Part shown: piece by piece, positions 2,887-10,532 of the stretch
How positions within the stretch are numbered: the first letter of the stretch is position 1
Layout of the letters: each line of letters begins with the position of its first letter
NCBI GenBank assembly: GCA_000337115.1
Contig: AOIR01000005.1
Location: 113,006 to 177,005, forward strand
Source: Natrinema thermotolerans DSM 11552
GTDB taxonomy: Archaea > Halobacteriota > Halobacteria > Halobacteriales > Natrialbaceae
Length of the DNA stretch: 64,000 nt
Direction: 5' to 3'
Made by a program: the position numbers and the translations under genes
Notes under the pieces: generated by a model
What the model was told of the DNA's origin: nothing
What the model saw: the letters and a program-made list of their open reading frames with translations, nothing else
Databases searched by the model: none

Positions 2887-3408
2887 ATGCGATCACTCAC
2901 GGCCCTTGGCATCGGATTGATACTCATTGGTGGTATCGTACTCGCCGCACCGAGCGGTGCGTTCGATCTGACAAGTGCCGACCGAGGAGTGGGTGTTGAA
3001 ACCGCATCCGACGAAGACGCGCTCGTGGGAATTGAAAAAGAACCGATCAGTCTGACGGAAAATGATGCGACTCGGCTAGTCTGGTCTTCCGGGTTGAAGT
3101 ATGAGTATACTGATGTCGAACTCGTCACGATTACCGATCGAACCCAGTCATCCGACCTCGAAGTGACGGATGCAGGACTCAATATGTCGACCGGGGACAC
3201 TGACTACCCAGATCTTCAGGAAGACGAGATTGTAATGGCCAATGGTGAGTTCACCGTCGAAGGGACGCTTCGGTGTGACGCAAGAATAGTCGGGTTCCTC
3301 CAATTCGATCAGCAAAGCAGTAGCACGAATCTCACGATGGACCTCGAGACCAGCGATGGAACGATTACTGTTGAACTCGAGCGGGAGATTCCCGTTCAAT
3401 GTAAGTGA
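2887..3408 (+). CDS. Small secreted protein, first of three paralogues
   Basis: A 173-residue protein with a Sec-type signal (residues 1-25: hydrophobic GIGLILIGGIVLAAP then SGAF). Directly after it is the block DRGVGVETASDEDALVGIE, which recurs almost unchanged after the signal peptides of the genes at 4156 and 6018, so the three are paralogues. The rest is predicted beta-rich, with cysteines at RCDA and VQC near the end. The family resembles archaeal exported proteins of the DUF1102 type, which are often called hypothetical. The role is unknown; a component of a surface layer or fibre is inferred from its place next to the pilin-like protein. Confidence 0.75.
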   Translation: MRSLTALGIGLILIGGIVLAAPSGAFDLTSADRGVGVETASDEDALVGIEKEPISLTENDATRLVWSSGLKYEYTDVELVTITDRTQSSDLEVTDAGLNMSTGDTDYPDLQEDEIVMANGEFTVEGTLRCDARIVGFLQFDQQSSSTNLTMDLETSDGTITVELEREIPVQCK

Positions 3409-3579: not shown

Positions 3580-4152
3580 ATGGCGACAACCAGCGAGAGC
3601 AAACCAGCGACAGCGGGGGCGACAGGTCAGGACGATCAGTCGCGGGAGGGCGAAATCTTCGACCTGTTGAGCAACCAGCGTCGCCGGTACGCGATCCACT
3701 ACTGCAAGCGTGAGGACGAACCGGTCACGCTCGGGGATCTCGCCGAACACGTCGCCGCCTGGGAACTCGAGAAAGAAGTCGAGGAGATCACCTCCGCCGA
3801 GCGAAAGCGGGTCTACACCTCATTACAACAGACCCACCTCCCCACGCTCGAGCGGGCCGACGTCATCGAGTTCGACGATCGAACGATCGAACTCACTGAC
3901 GAGGCCGCCGAGTTGGACGTCTATCTGGATATCGTTCCCGGCGATTCGGTCCCGTGGGGGGTGTACTACCTGGGCCTGTCGGCGGTCGGTGCGATCGTCA
4001 TGGCCGGACTGTGGCTCGAGGTCGTCCCGACGGAGCCGATCCCGGAACTGGGGTGGGCGACGCTGGTCTTTGTGCTGTTTGCCGTGTCGGCGGTCGTCCA
4101 CGTGATACAGACCAGACGGATGCGACTCGGCGAACTGGAGCGGCCGCCCTGA
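3580..4152 (+). CDS. Membrane-anchored winged-helix regulator (DUF7344-type)
   Basis: A 190-residue protein. Residues 25-110 form a winged-helix domain typical of haloarchaeal regulators (EIFDLLSNQRRRYAIHYC opening, then LGDLAEHVAAWE and a recognition-helix region with KRVYTSLQQTHLP). Residues ~125-180 hold two membrane helices with a short Arg-rich tail. An aggggg motif sits just before the ATG. The stop is only 3 bases before the next ATG, so it is very likely cotranscribed with the bactofilin-like gene and may control this surface cluster. The DNA target is unknown. Confidence 0.85.
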   Translation: MATTSESKPATAGATGQDDQSREGEIFDLLSNQRRRYAIHYCKREDEPVTLGDLAEHVAAWELEKEVEEITSAERKRVYTSLQQTHLPTLERADVIEFDDRTIELTDEAAELDVYLDIVPGDSVPWGVYYLGLSAVGAIVMAGLWLEVVPTEPIPELGWATLVFVLFAVSAVVHVIQTRRMRLGELERPP

Positions 4153-4155
4153 TCC

Positions 4156-5820
4156 ATGAACGGCGTCCATCGGCTTGCGCTCGTCTGTCTGCTCGTCGGC
4201 GGCGTGTTACTCGCCGGTCCCGCGTTCGGGTTCGCGACGGTCAGCTCCGAACGCGGCGTCACCGCGATGGTCGCGGGCGATCAGCAAAACGCCTACCTCG
4301 GTATCGAGGACAACACGGCGACGGAAAATCAGATCAGGCCGAACAGTCAGGTGGAGGTCCTCCGACTCTACGATAACGGCGTCGGAATCGACTCGACCGC
4401 GGATATCGAGGCCGAGATCGTCGAGTTTGCCGGCGAGCAAGACGACGGGTTCGACGTCTCCGTCGAGGAGGAAAACGGCAAATACCCGGTCGTCGTCGAG
4501 TGTGCCGGCTCCGACGGCGGAACTGGGACGATGGTGTTCGACCTCGAGGCGACCGGGACGGCGACCGTCGACACCACGTGGAAGACGGAAAACGAAGTCG
4601 ACGTCAACTGTGGCGGCAACGGCGGCGGCGGTCCGGGCGGGAGTCCCGGGCTGTCCGTCACGAGCGTCGCTCCACCGAACGGCGGGGTCGTGACCTTCGA
4701 ACTGGAAAACACCGGGACGGACTTCCGGCTTCGCTCCGTCGCAGTCGATCACGCGAAGTCAACGGCGATCGACGGCGAGATGACGATCACGACGGCCGGG
4801 GAAACGCGGACGCTCAGCGACAACCCCGAGTGGAGGACCGACGGCTCTCGAGTCGACATCGGCGGCAAATTCGAGATACTGAGTGGTGACACCGCGACCG
4901 TCGAGATCGATCGGTTCGACGCCGACATGAACGCGGAATCGTTTACAGTGACGTTCGTCGACGACCGCGGTAGCTCGGAGACGACGGAGACAGTGACGGT
5001 CGACGTGCCCTGTAACGCCGAGACGAACGACTGCAGCGGCACCGACGCCGACGCCGTCGTCTCCGATAGCGGGTACGCAAGCGACGATGTCAGTAGCGGC
5101 GGGAGCGTCTCGGCTGGCGATGGGAGTTACATCGATGGAAACGTCGACGCCGGAGACGACGTGACCGCCGGCAACGAGAGTACCATCGAGGGCGATGTCA
5201 GTGCCGGCGGCGACATCGATGCGGGCGATGATAGTTACGTCAACGGCGATCTCGATGCGGGTGACGACGTCACGACCGGCGATGGAAACACCATCGCGGG
5301 CAACGTAAACGCCGACGGGGAGACGGCGCTCGGAAACGAGAGTTACGTCGACGGGGACATCGACGCTGGGGACGACGTCACGACCGGTGATGAAAGTACG
5401 ATCGCGGGTGACGTCACAACCGACGGGGACGCGGTCTTCGGGACCGACGGCTACGTCGACGGCAACGTCAACGGGGACGACATCGTCATCGGGGAGGGCA
5501 CGACGATAGCGGGCAATGTCGACGGCACCGGTAGCGTGACTACAGTTGCCGGCAGCTACGTCGACGGCGACGTGACCGCCACCGAGACGGTCACGATCGC
5601 CGCGGGCGCGGAAGTCCACGGAGATATTCAGACCGACGGCGACGTGATCATCGGCGAGAACGCTTACGTTGATGGCAACATCGATGCTGGTGGAGAGATC
5701 ACGATCAACGACGGCGCTCAGGTCATGGGTGACGTGACGACGAGTCAAACGCTCGTCCTCGACGGAGAGCCGTACATCGGTGGCGATCGATCATACGAGT
5801 CGTGTGACGGCTGTACGTGA
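4156..5820 (+). CDS. Secreted paralogue with bactofilin-like repeat domain
   Basis: A 554-residue protein in three parts. Residues 1-25 are a signal peptide followed by the SERGVTAMVAGDQQNAYLGIE block shared with the neighbouring paralogues. Residues ~30-290 are beta-rich with a Gly-rich linker (GGNGGGGPGG) near 155. Residues ~300-550 are a long array of short repeats of the form SYVDGDIDAGDDVTTG, in which G-D/N-V alternates with polar turns, as in the right-handed beta-helix of bactofilins (polymer-forming cytoskeletal domain). Bactofilins normally act in the cytoplasm, so a signal peptide is unusual and suggests an extracellular polymer. It ends with CDGC. The fold is inferred from the repeat pattern. 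Confidence 0.75.
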   Translation: MNGVHRLALVCLLVGGVLLAGPAFGFATVSSERGVTAMVAGDQQNAYLGIEDNTATENQIRPNSQVEVLRLYDNGVGIDSTADIEAEIVEFAGEQDDGFDVSVEEENGKYPVVVECAGSDGGTGTMVFDLEATGTATVDTTWKTENEVDVNCGGNGGGGPGGSPGLSVTSVAPPNGGVVTFELENTGTDFRLRSVAVDHAKSTAIDGEMTITTAGETRTLSDNPEWRTDGSRVDIGGKFEILSGDTATVEIDRFDADMNAESFTVTFVDDRGSSETTETVTVDVPCNAETNDCSGTDADAVVSDSGYASDDVSSGGSVSAGDGSYIDGNVDAGDDVTAGNESTIEGDVSAGGDIDAGDDSYVNGDLDAGDDVTTGDGNTIAGNVNADGETALGNESYVDGDIDAGDDVTTGDESTIAGDVTTDGDAVFGTDGYVDGNVNGDDIVIGEGTTIAGNVDGTGSVTTVAGSYVDGDVTATETVTIAAGAEVHGDIQTDGDVIIGENAYVDGNIDAGGEITINDGAQVMGDVTTSQTLVLDGEPYIGGDRSYESCDGCT

Positions 5821-6017: not shown

Positions 6018-6890
6018 ATGCGTCTGCAATCGATCAAACACGCTGGGGCCGTACTCGCCATCGTCGGCGCACTGGTAGTCGCCGGACCGTCGGCCGGCTT
6101 CAGTGTCCTCGAAGCCGACCGCGGCGTCGGCGTCCAGACCGTCGCGGACCCGGACGCATACCTCGGAATCGAAAGCGAAGGCGACGTGACCGGAACCGCG
6201 CTCAAAGCCGACAGCGGTCCGCTCCGGGTGGGTACGCTCACGAACAACGTCAACGAACCATTCACCGTACAGGACGTGACGATCGCATCGATCGGAGACG
6301 GTAGCGTCGACGATGGTATTCTGGCCGTCGCCTCGCCAAATACGGGCGATACGATCGACGTCGGAACGACGGCGAACGTCACCGTCGAATGCGCGGCGAA
6401 ACAGACGGTCAACGAACGGGACGTCGTGGTTCGCGTCGACGGCGTCGAGGGATCGACCATCTCAGTCGCCGACCCGACGTTCAACGCGACCGTCGACATA
6501 CAGTGTGGACAGGGGAAGTTCTCCGGTCAAGTGTCGTTCGCCGCGAGCAACGTCAGCAGCGACGGGACGACACAGACCGTCTCGTTCGATCCGACGGGAC
6601 TGTCGAGCAAGGGCGAAGCGACGATCGACTTCTCCGACCCACAGGACAGCGGTGGTGTCAGTTATTCGAGCGTGACCGATGCCGACGTCACGGTACAGAG
6701 CGGGAAGGGGACCGCGTCGTTCGATCCGAACACCGCACAGCTCACCTATAGCAGCAAAAGCAACGAGAAAAACACGGTAACGATCGAGATTGCCAACCTC
6801 GAGGTCGACGGTCCGACCGGCGAGTCGTATCAGGTGACCTATGCCGATAGCGACGGGCGCGAGGACGGCGATATCTTTGAGATCACCTGA
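6018..6890 (+). CDS. Secreted surface protein, third paralogue
   Basis: A 290-residue protein. The start at 6018 is chosen over an ATG 96 bases upstream because a purine-rich ggagaggggg motif precedes it and the protein then opens directly with a signal peptide (KHAGAVLAIVGALVVAGPSAGF). The DRGVGVQTVADPDAYLGIE block links it to the genes at 2887 and 4156. The remainder is beta-rich with VECA and DIQC cysteines in the middle, like the CxC pattern of the paralogues, and a C-terminal ~110-residue beta domain. It is probably an exported fibre or matrix protein; no specific function can be read. Confidence 0.75.
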   Translation: MRLQSIKHAGAVLAIVGALVVAGPSAGFSVLEADRGVGVQTVADPDAYLGIESEGDVTGTALKADSGPLRVGTLTNNVNEPFTVQDVTIASIGDGSVDDGILAVASPNTGDTIDVGTTANVTVECAAKQTVNERDVVVRVDGVEGSTISVADPTFNATVDIQCGQGKFSGQVSFAASNVSSDGTTQTVSFDPTGLSSKGEATIDFSDPQDSGGVSYSSVTDADVTVQSGKGTASFDPNTAQLTYSSKSNEKNTVTIEIANLEVDGPTGESYQVTYADSDGREDGDIFEIT

Positions 6891-9566: not shown

Positions 9567-10088
9567 TCAACCCATCAGTCGCTGACAGCTGCCACAGAGG
9601 TTCTCCTCTTTGATGTCGACCTCGCGGACGGTCGGCGAGAAGTTCATCACACAGCGGTTGTTGTCGCAGTGCTCGAGGCCGTAGGTATGGCCGATCTCGT
9701 GGACGATCTCCTTGCGGACGCGGTCCTCGAAGATGTCGGCGGCGCTTTGATTCGAGAAGCCGCCGTCGCTCGAGGTCTGGAGCCGGTAGGTCGAAACGAC
9801 GCTGCCGCTGCCATCGAGATAGGCGAGTCCGAAGACGTAGTTGCGCCGCCGGTAGAAGAGGTCGTGGGGCGTGATCGCGATGTTTTTCTCGCCGCGACCG
9901 ACCCGTTCGGCGAGTTGGATGAAGGTCTCGGCGGAGTACTGGTTCCGGTCGGAGTCGTAGGCACCGTTGGGGACCGACTGCGAGTCGTTGATCGAGACGT
10001 CGCAGTCGTAGACCGATCGCAACGCGGCGGAGGCCGCCCGCTTGACCTCGGCGGGGACGCTGCCGACCGGCACGATATCGACGAGCAT
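9567..10088 (-). CDS. amzA: Archaemetzincin zinc protease
   Basis: A 173-residue protein, close to family size. It has the archaemetzincin signature HEIGHTYGLEHC then CVM and a distal CGSC, which binds a catalytic zinc through the three histidines and a second structural zinc through the cysteines. The start at MLVDIVPVG is chosen because the family begins here; an in-frame ATG lies ten codons upstream. Archaemetzincins are cytosolic metallopeptidases of unclear substrate. Divergent from the UPF0146 gene, with 39 bases between the two starts. Confidence 0.93.
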   Translation of the reverse strand: MLVDIVPVGSVPAEVKRAASAALRSVYDCDVSINDSQSVPNGAYDSDRNQYSAETFIQLAERVGRGEKNIAITPHDLFYRRRNYVFGLAYLDGSGSVVSTYRLQTSSDGGFSNQSAADIFEDRVRKEIVHEIGHTYGLEHCDNNRCVMNFSPTVREVDIKEENLCGSCQRLMG

Positions 10089-10127
10089 AGCAAGGGCTAT
10101 GGCCGCGGGTGGCATAAACGTCCCGCC

Positions 10128-10532
10128 GTGGCCCACTCTCGCCGGAATCCCGACGCGTTGCTCGAGGTCCTCGCGGACTACGATCGCGTCGTCGAGATCG
10201 GAATCGGCCGCCGGACCGACCTGGCTCGAGCGCTGGCCGACCGCGGGGTCGCCGTCACCGCGACGGACGTCCACGAGCGCGACGTGCCGGCGGGCGTGGC
10301 GTTCGTTCGCGACGACATCGTCAATCCCGAGCCGTCCGTCTACGCCGACGCGGACGCGATCTACGCGCGGAACCTGCCGCCCGAACTGCATCGTCCGGCC
10401 CTCGAGGTCGCCCGGACCGCCGACGCCGATTTCCTGTTTACGACGCTGGGCGGCGACCCGTCTGCAGTGCCGGTCGAACGGAAAACGATCGAGACGGGGA
10501 CGCTGTACGTCGCTCGAGTCCGTGGGGAGTAG
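10128..10532 (+). CDS. UPF0146 family protein
   Basis: A 134-residue protein starting with GTG; no ATG is available at the conserved N-terminus (AHSRRNPDALLEVL). The VVEIGIGRRTDLARALADRG and VTATDVHE segments form the first half of a Rossmann fold like that of SAM methyltransferases, with IYARNLPPELH later. UPF0146 proteins are conserved in archaea and have no assigned reaction. Length and motifs fit the family. Confidence 0.88.
   Translation: MAHSRRNPDALLEVLADYDRVVEIGIGRRTDLARALADRGVAVTATDVHERDVPAGVAFVRDDIVNPEPSVYADADAIYARNLPPELHRPALEVARTADADFLFTTLGGDPSAVPVERKTIETGTLYVARVRGE

Follow-up and report, generated by a model that had tools for sequence, protein, structure and literature searches.

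The locus and its gene cluster

The open reading frame at positions 4156 to 5820 of the window, which is the whole 64,000-nucleotide stretch of Natrinema thermotolerans DSM 11552 DNA analyzed here, runs from ATG to TGA on the + strand and encodes a protein of 554 amino acids. The reading frame, a Pfam match, and an AF2 model describe a putative exported protein of fimbrial type with a C-terminal bactofilin beta-helix. The gene is part of a cluster that extends left past the window start (locus L005), where the minus strand carries genes for a DUF5305 protein, a signal peptidase I resembling SipW, a CARDB membrane protein, and a TafE/TafA-like protein. Rightward, the order is a DUF7289 protein, a paralogue of the target's N-domain, a DUF7344 regulator, the target, a second N-domain paralogue, EMC6, and an ABCE1/RLI ATPase. 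The window holds the 3' part of the first of these (1 to 2745, +), which encodes a 1024-residue DUF7289/CARDB protein with a type-IV-pilin-like N-terminus and is a cluster member in several relatives. Both paralogues are TafC-like and carry no repeats; the first (2887 to 3408, +; NCBIfam E 2.6e-8) is followed by the regulator, a wHTH-type protein (3580 to 4152, +; Pfam E 2.6e-30) whose gene ends 4 bases before the target, while the second (6018 to 6890, +; NCBIfam E 6e-7) is made up of the N-domain and a second domain.

Comparison with 14 loci from relatives gives a conserved order of DUF5305, SipW, CARDB, and TafE-like genes on one side and DUF7344, the target position, EMC6, and RLI on the other. 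The DUF7344 gene is kept in 13 of the 14 loci and adjoins or overlaps the gene at the target position in nearly all 13. SipW is found at 12 of the 14, and EMC6 together with RLI at 11. The exception is L070, where none of the cluster neighbors are present. Further along the window, a reading frame at 9567 to 10391 (-) with the motif HEIGHTYGLEHCDNNRCVM looks like an archaemetzincin-type protease and is otherwise ordinary.

Predicted export leader and folded domains

Structurally, the protein begins with a predicted export leader at residues 1 to 27 (4156 to 4236, +), recognized by its hydropathy and by the conservation of GPxFGF in the family. The leader has a hydrophobic core with a mean hydropathy of 2.38 over 17 residues, followed by GPAFGFA, and AF2 places a helix at residues 2 to 19. 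A hydropathy scan found no transmembrane-like segment after the leader (maximum 0.81). From sequence, gene family, and gene context, we infer that the protein is exported. Behind the leader lies a conserved strand block at residues 28 to 52 (TVSSERGVTAMVAGDQQNAYLGIED; 4237 to 4311, +), a candidate donor strand on the basis of its alignment with the TafE and 9p0a pilin N-terminus. This is followed by a TafC-like N-terminal beta-sandwich spanning residues ~48 to 155 (4297 to 4620, +), which is delimited by alignments A2 and A3, the NCBIfam TafC model, and AF2. Residues G15, P22, F26, R33, C116, and C152 are invariant in both alignments, the two cysteines falling within the sandwich.

The preliminary description of this DNA had proposed that a signal peptide and a surface-protein N-terminal block precede a repeat region, and both elements are borne out: the first by the hydrophobic leader and its conservation in the family, the second by a block at residues ~28 to 155 that is common to the paralogues at 2887 to 3408 and 6018 to 6890 and belongs to a TafC-like family. 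In the AF2 monomer model, residues 21 to 36 have pLDDT values below 50, while both sandwiches and the helix are well predicted; the low values fit a strand that is ordered only within a fiber but do not prove it. A glycine-rich linker joins the first sandwich to a second, predicted at residues 166 to 283 (4651 to 5004, +) from AF2 and from homology to the C-terminal half of the relatives L009 to L011 and L014. Foldseek of the full AF2 model returns mostly unspecific Ig-type sandwiches with low TM-scores, and a PDB sequence search gives weak matches, chiefly hexapeptide acyltransferases, at E values of 0.009 or higher.

A predicted bactofilin-type beta-helix

The C-terminal half of the protein is made up of a predicted bactofilin-type beta-helix at residues ~296 to 547 (5041 to 5796, +), comprising ~14 turns of 18 residues, as indicated by PF04519, periodicity, and AF2. 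The protein ends in a short CDGCT tail, whose CxxC (C550 and C553; 5803 to 5814, +) may cap the helix; analogous C-terminal cysteines are present in seven relatives (L015, L017, L019, L030, L033, L034, and L036). Within the repeat region, sequence identity reaches 0.27 at a lag of 18 residues and 0.35 at a lag of 36. In 2000 shuffled controls the maximum identity over lags was 0.156 +/- 0.011 and the largest value was 0.218, so no shuffle reaches the periodicity seen at lags of 18 and 36. Hydropathy autocorrelation peaks at 6, 12, 18, and 36 residues. Together, the identity and hydropathy lags give a period of 18 residues, made up of three 6-residue sides, and a super-repeat of 36 residues. 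Of the 240 residues in the repeat core, 23% are acidic and basic ones are essentially absent.

The repeat region matches PF04519 (Bactofilin) with an E value of 5.1e-23 and 81.6 bits against a curated cut-off of 27.9, and this is the sole family above its own cut-off among the profile matches of the region. AF2 predicts a continuous beta-helix in the full model, with pLDDT values of 97 to 98 over most of the helix, and the helix modeled alone gives ~14 turns with a pLDDT of 96.4 and a pTM of 0.90. The best reading is that the repeats form a bactofilin-type beta-helix, presumably right-handed. It is very improbable that the repeats instead form another beta-solenoid, such as a hexapeptide left-handed helix, an ice-binding-like fold, or a Ca2+-dependent beta-helix. 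Hints toward such folds come from sub-threshold matches to NeuD acetyltransferase (E 1.8e-8) and Ice_binding (E 0.0023), and from the best PDB match of the helix alone in Foldseek, the Ca2+-dependent beta-helical antifreeze domain 3p4g (E 0.045). However, each of these families falls under its own cut-off while Bactofilin exceeds it, and in profile-profile comparison the repeat profile matches a near-universal, PF04519-positive haloarchaeal protein of 293 residues at E 6e-12. A weaker profile-profile match (E 6e-7) is to a protein with a leader, a bactofilin domain, and a C-terminal transmembrane region, which we take to be HalB-like.

Foldseek of the helix alone gave no match at E < 0.001, possibly because the structure letters of beta-helices are repetitive, and its best 50 hits include no solved bactofilin. 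Those 50 hits, all weak, are right-handed beta-helices, with antifreeze proteins, SufBD, and tapirin as examples; hexapeptide acyltransferases are absent from them, which also counts against the left-handed alternative. The preliminary description was thus accurate in assigning about 250 residues of bactofilin-like repeats to the gene at 4156 to 5820: the region is ~252 residues long, its 18-residue repeats lie far beyond chance, and both the Pfam match and the predicted structure agree with the fold.

Relationship to Taf-type fimbriae

There are three NCBIfam models for Taf proteins, NF052520 (TafA), NF052521 (TafC), and NF052522 (TafE). The TafC model matches 22 of the 26 members of the target family (alignment A3), with a best E value of 1.3e-14. 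The target itself has no TafC match at E <= 0.1 in the NCBIfam search, and no genome match lies above the curated cut-offs of TafC (410 bits) or TafE. A search of Pfam found no TasA/camelysin match in the target. Profile comparison links the N-domain to the TafE-like proteins (hhalign probability 96.8, E 2e-10), a match that falls largely within the leader and the strand behind it, the N-terminal ~56 residues. The TafE-like neighbor in turn matches the solved pilin PDB 9p0a at E 1.2e-18. Matched directly to 9p0a, the N-domain profile gives a weak E value of 0.072, and the link from N-domain to pilin therefore runs through the TafE-like proteins. Membership of the N-domain in a Taf-type fimbrial N-domain superfamily is supported by these comparisons.

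The strongest evidence for the fimbrial link is positional, as TafA lies near bactofilin-bearing orthologues of the target. TafA exceeds its curated cut-off (211 bits against 190) in only 2 of 29 Natrinema genomes, G069 and G070, and in both it lies within ~10 kb of such an orthologue (G069:C1:2697771 with the orthologue at 2707547, and G070:C11:985040 with the orthologue at 994833). In a third genome a TafA of 175 bits, just below the cut-off of 190, is found in the same cluster (G062:C9:71521, with the orthologue at 74597). The gene at L005:15669-16244 encodes a small protein whose leader is of twin-arginine type; it matches TafE (4e-19) and TafA (6e-16), both under cut-off. The signal peptidase of the cluster matches the SipW-like model NF046067 at a sub-threshold E value of 7.5e-10 and sigpep_I_arch above its cut-off. 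Taken with TafA in the relatives, this peptidase strongly supports the placement of the target gene in a Taf-type fimbrial cluster.

Alternatively, the protein could be a surface spacer or adhesin outside any fimbria, held by an uncleaved N-terminal helix or by the S-layer, with its rod passing through or standing above that layer. A single hydrophobic N-terminal helix might indeed stay uncleaved, the layout of two Ig-like sandwiches and a rod is adhesin-like, and the full model has weak Foldseek matches to Ig-type and MSCRAMM adhesins. This alternative is nonetheless unlikely, as the cluster holds a SipW-like peptidase and pilins, and the block after the leader is common to the TafE and 9p0a pilins, so that a processed fimbrial subunit fits better.

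Gain and loss of the helix among relatives

The helix is a variable part of the protein family. Three relatives, L009 to L011, share 36 to 40% identity with the target over its first ~300 residues and stop at ISCDDDSTACGP or a similar sequence, the point at which the target reads VPCNAETNDC and enters its repeats. Other relatives have from ~5 to ~20 repeat turns, by a measure with a noise floor of ~4 turns. Mapped on the N-domain tree, the repeat trait changes 8 times by parsimony, with at least 4 of the changes on well-supported branches. A protein with the N-domain and repeats is found in at least 14 of the 29 Natrinema genomes, and L128, from another family of the order, has the same combination (PF04519 E 1.4e-15). 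In further haloarchaeal families, L129 to L134 have an N-domain followed by repeats that resemble other beta-solenoids, of a haemagglutinin-repeat-like kind, with weak Pfam matches. A phage origin of the target was rejected, as tblastn gave no match in 50,697 phage records. Plasmid-borne relatives occur in 3 records, all of them plain polymer-forming cytoskeletal proteins.

This variability bears on the suggestion, made in the preliminary description, of an extracellular bactofilin filament, in which the helix would polymerize end to end outside the cell and the N-terminal domains would decorate or anchor it. The PF04519 match and the confident prediction of a long helix are in keeping with such a filament; halofilins reportedly polymerize, and HalB is reported to work at the cell's outer surface. 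However, known polymerizing bactofilins have free helix ends with flexible flanks, whereas here a folded domain lies directly before the helix and a CxxC tail behind it, which counts against polymerization. Helix length also varies, the same locus often lacks a helix altogether, and a fiber is already supplied by the pilin-type genes. The bactofilin part may conceivably form filaments of its own, but this is unsupported, and an extracellular bactofilin filament is quite unlikely. The earlier suggestion does not sit well with a Taf-related N-terminal block, a gene in a fimbrial cluster, and relatives (L009 to L011) without repeats; the block and the cluster make it more likely that pilin-type domains build the fiber and that the beta-helix is an added rod.

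A proposed role as a minor fimbrial subunit

In the view that we favor, with a probability of about 0.62, the target displays a bactofilin beta-helix as one of the minor subunits of an archaeal fimbria of Taf/TasA type. This reading rests on the predicted export, on the TafC-like N-domain family, and on the conserved cluster with its SipW-like peptidase and TafE/TafA-like pilins. In the mechanism we propose, the SipW-like signal peptidase of the cluster would cut the leader, and the strand behind it (residues ~28 to 52) would insert into a neighboring pilin subunit by donor-strand exchange, as in TasA. By this analogy, the N-domain probably takes part in donor-strand exchange, and the insertion would anchor the target in the fiber or at one fiber end. 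A stiff and strongly acidic rod, formed by the second beta-sandwich together with the ~14-turn helix, would then protrude, with a helix length of ~6 to 7 nm at ~4.8 Å per turn. The rod may function as a spacer or display module, its length tuned as units of 18 or 36 residues are gained or lost; the C-terminal module would be swappable between species, as would be the case for a surface-exposed spacer or adhesin-like part. The cell thus probably shows the rod on its outer surface fibers rather than holding it inside.

It is also conceivable, but distinctly improbable, that both parts polymerize, with the N-domain joining the fiber and the outward-facing helices pairing end to end or laterally. 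If this were so, the helices would bridge neighboring fibers or cells, and the outcome would be a cross-linked scaffold outside the cell, made of cytoskeletal-type parts.

Comparison with known systems

A precedent for the proposed mechanism is TasA of Bacillus, in which SipW removes the leader and the N-terminal strand of one subunit completes the next, with TapA possibly supplying the first strand (PMC9674648). Like TasA, TapA, and the archaeal bundling pili, the target combines a leader, a SipW-like peptidase in its cluster, a strand block after the leader, and a beta-sandwich layout of pilin type. Unlike TasA, to which a direct sequence match is undetectable, it comprises a pair of sandwiches and a long solenoid. 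With the Taf proteins the target family shares a TafC-like N-domain and a cluster with TafE/TafA-like genes, although the target falls under the curated cut-offs and the Taf models contain no bactofilin helix.

Compared with bacterial bactofilins (BacA, CcmA, and others), the target has the same beta-helix with 18-residue turns and a PF04519 match above cut-off, but it is predicted to be exported and has ~14 turns with folded, presumably extracellular domains upstream. Cytoskeletal bactofilins are cytoplasmic with short unstructured flanks, whereas the target has an export leader and two folded domains before its helix. A further hallmark of cytoskeletal bactofilins is that they polymerize end to end independently of nucleotides. 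Halofilins are bactofilin homologues with roles in cell curvature and shape (PMC12186497). Like the halofilins HalA and HalB, the target is a haloarchaeal bactofilin-domain protein; unlike them, it carries a fimbrial N-domain and sits in a taf cluster. HalB of Haloferax volcanii, which is of bactofilin type, is reportedly located on the outside of the cell. The target lacks the C-terminal transmembrane helices of the HalB-like protein, and its layout accordingly differs from that of the HalB-like genes. The same genome has a HalB-like gene (G000:C33:19988-21082, 66% identical to a relative), which rules out the target as a HalB replacement in this host, and a separate gene of the 293-residue bactofilin type on C48. 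The PF04519 search missed this HalB-like gene, and counts of PF04519 in haloarchaea are therefore lower bounds.

Exported bactofilin-domain proteins as such are not new, HalB being said to be one. Bactofilin repeats as a repeatedly gained and lost C-terminal module of a Taf-type fimbrial subunit appear to be a new architecture, as far as the literature checked shows. Bactofilins have been studied almost solely as internal scaffolds, while here the fold would be an add-on module of surface fimbriae that, at a single conserved locus, differs between close relatives in how long it is and in whether it occurs at all. If confirmed, this would show the bactofilin beta-helix to be a rod of general use in building outside archaeal cells, and the naturally occurring range of rod lengths could serve to test how the reach or adhesion of fimbriae depends on spacer length.

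Other exported-looking bactofilin repeats

In other haloarchaea, bactofilin-type repeats stand behind at least three more exported-looking N-termini, which are type IV pilin-like, of the twin-arginine leader type, or related to DUF7289. Repeats follow a type IV pilin-like N-terminus (e.g., SAVIGTVLLVGIATITMAILAAAILGVGLF) at L082, L083, L102, and L046, from Natrinema and a related genome, and these form a pilin-bactofilin fusion separate from the target. At L045 and L031, the repeats lie behind a twin-arginine-like leader (TTRRRI) and are apparently exported on their own. L042 and L043 are pilin-like proteins of 755 to 778 residues, of DUF7289 type by eye, in which the bactofilin-type repeats are internal and the C-terminal region is long.
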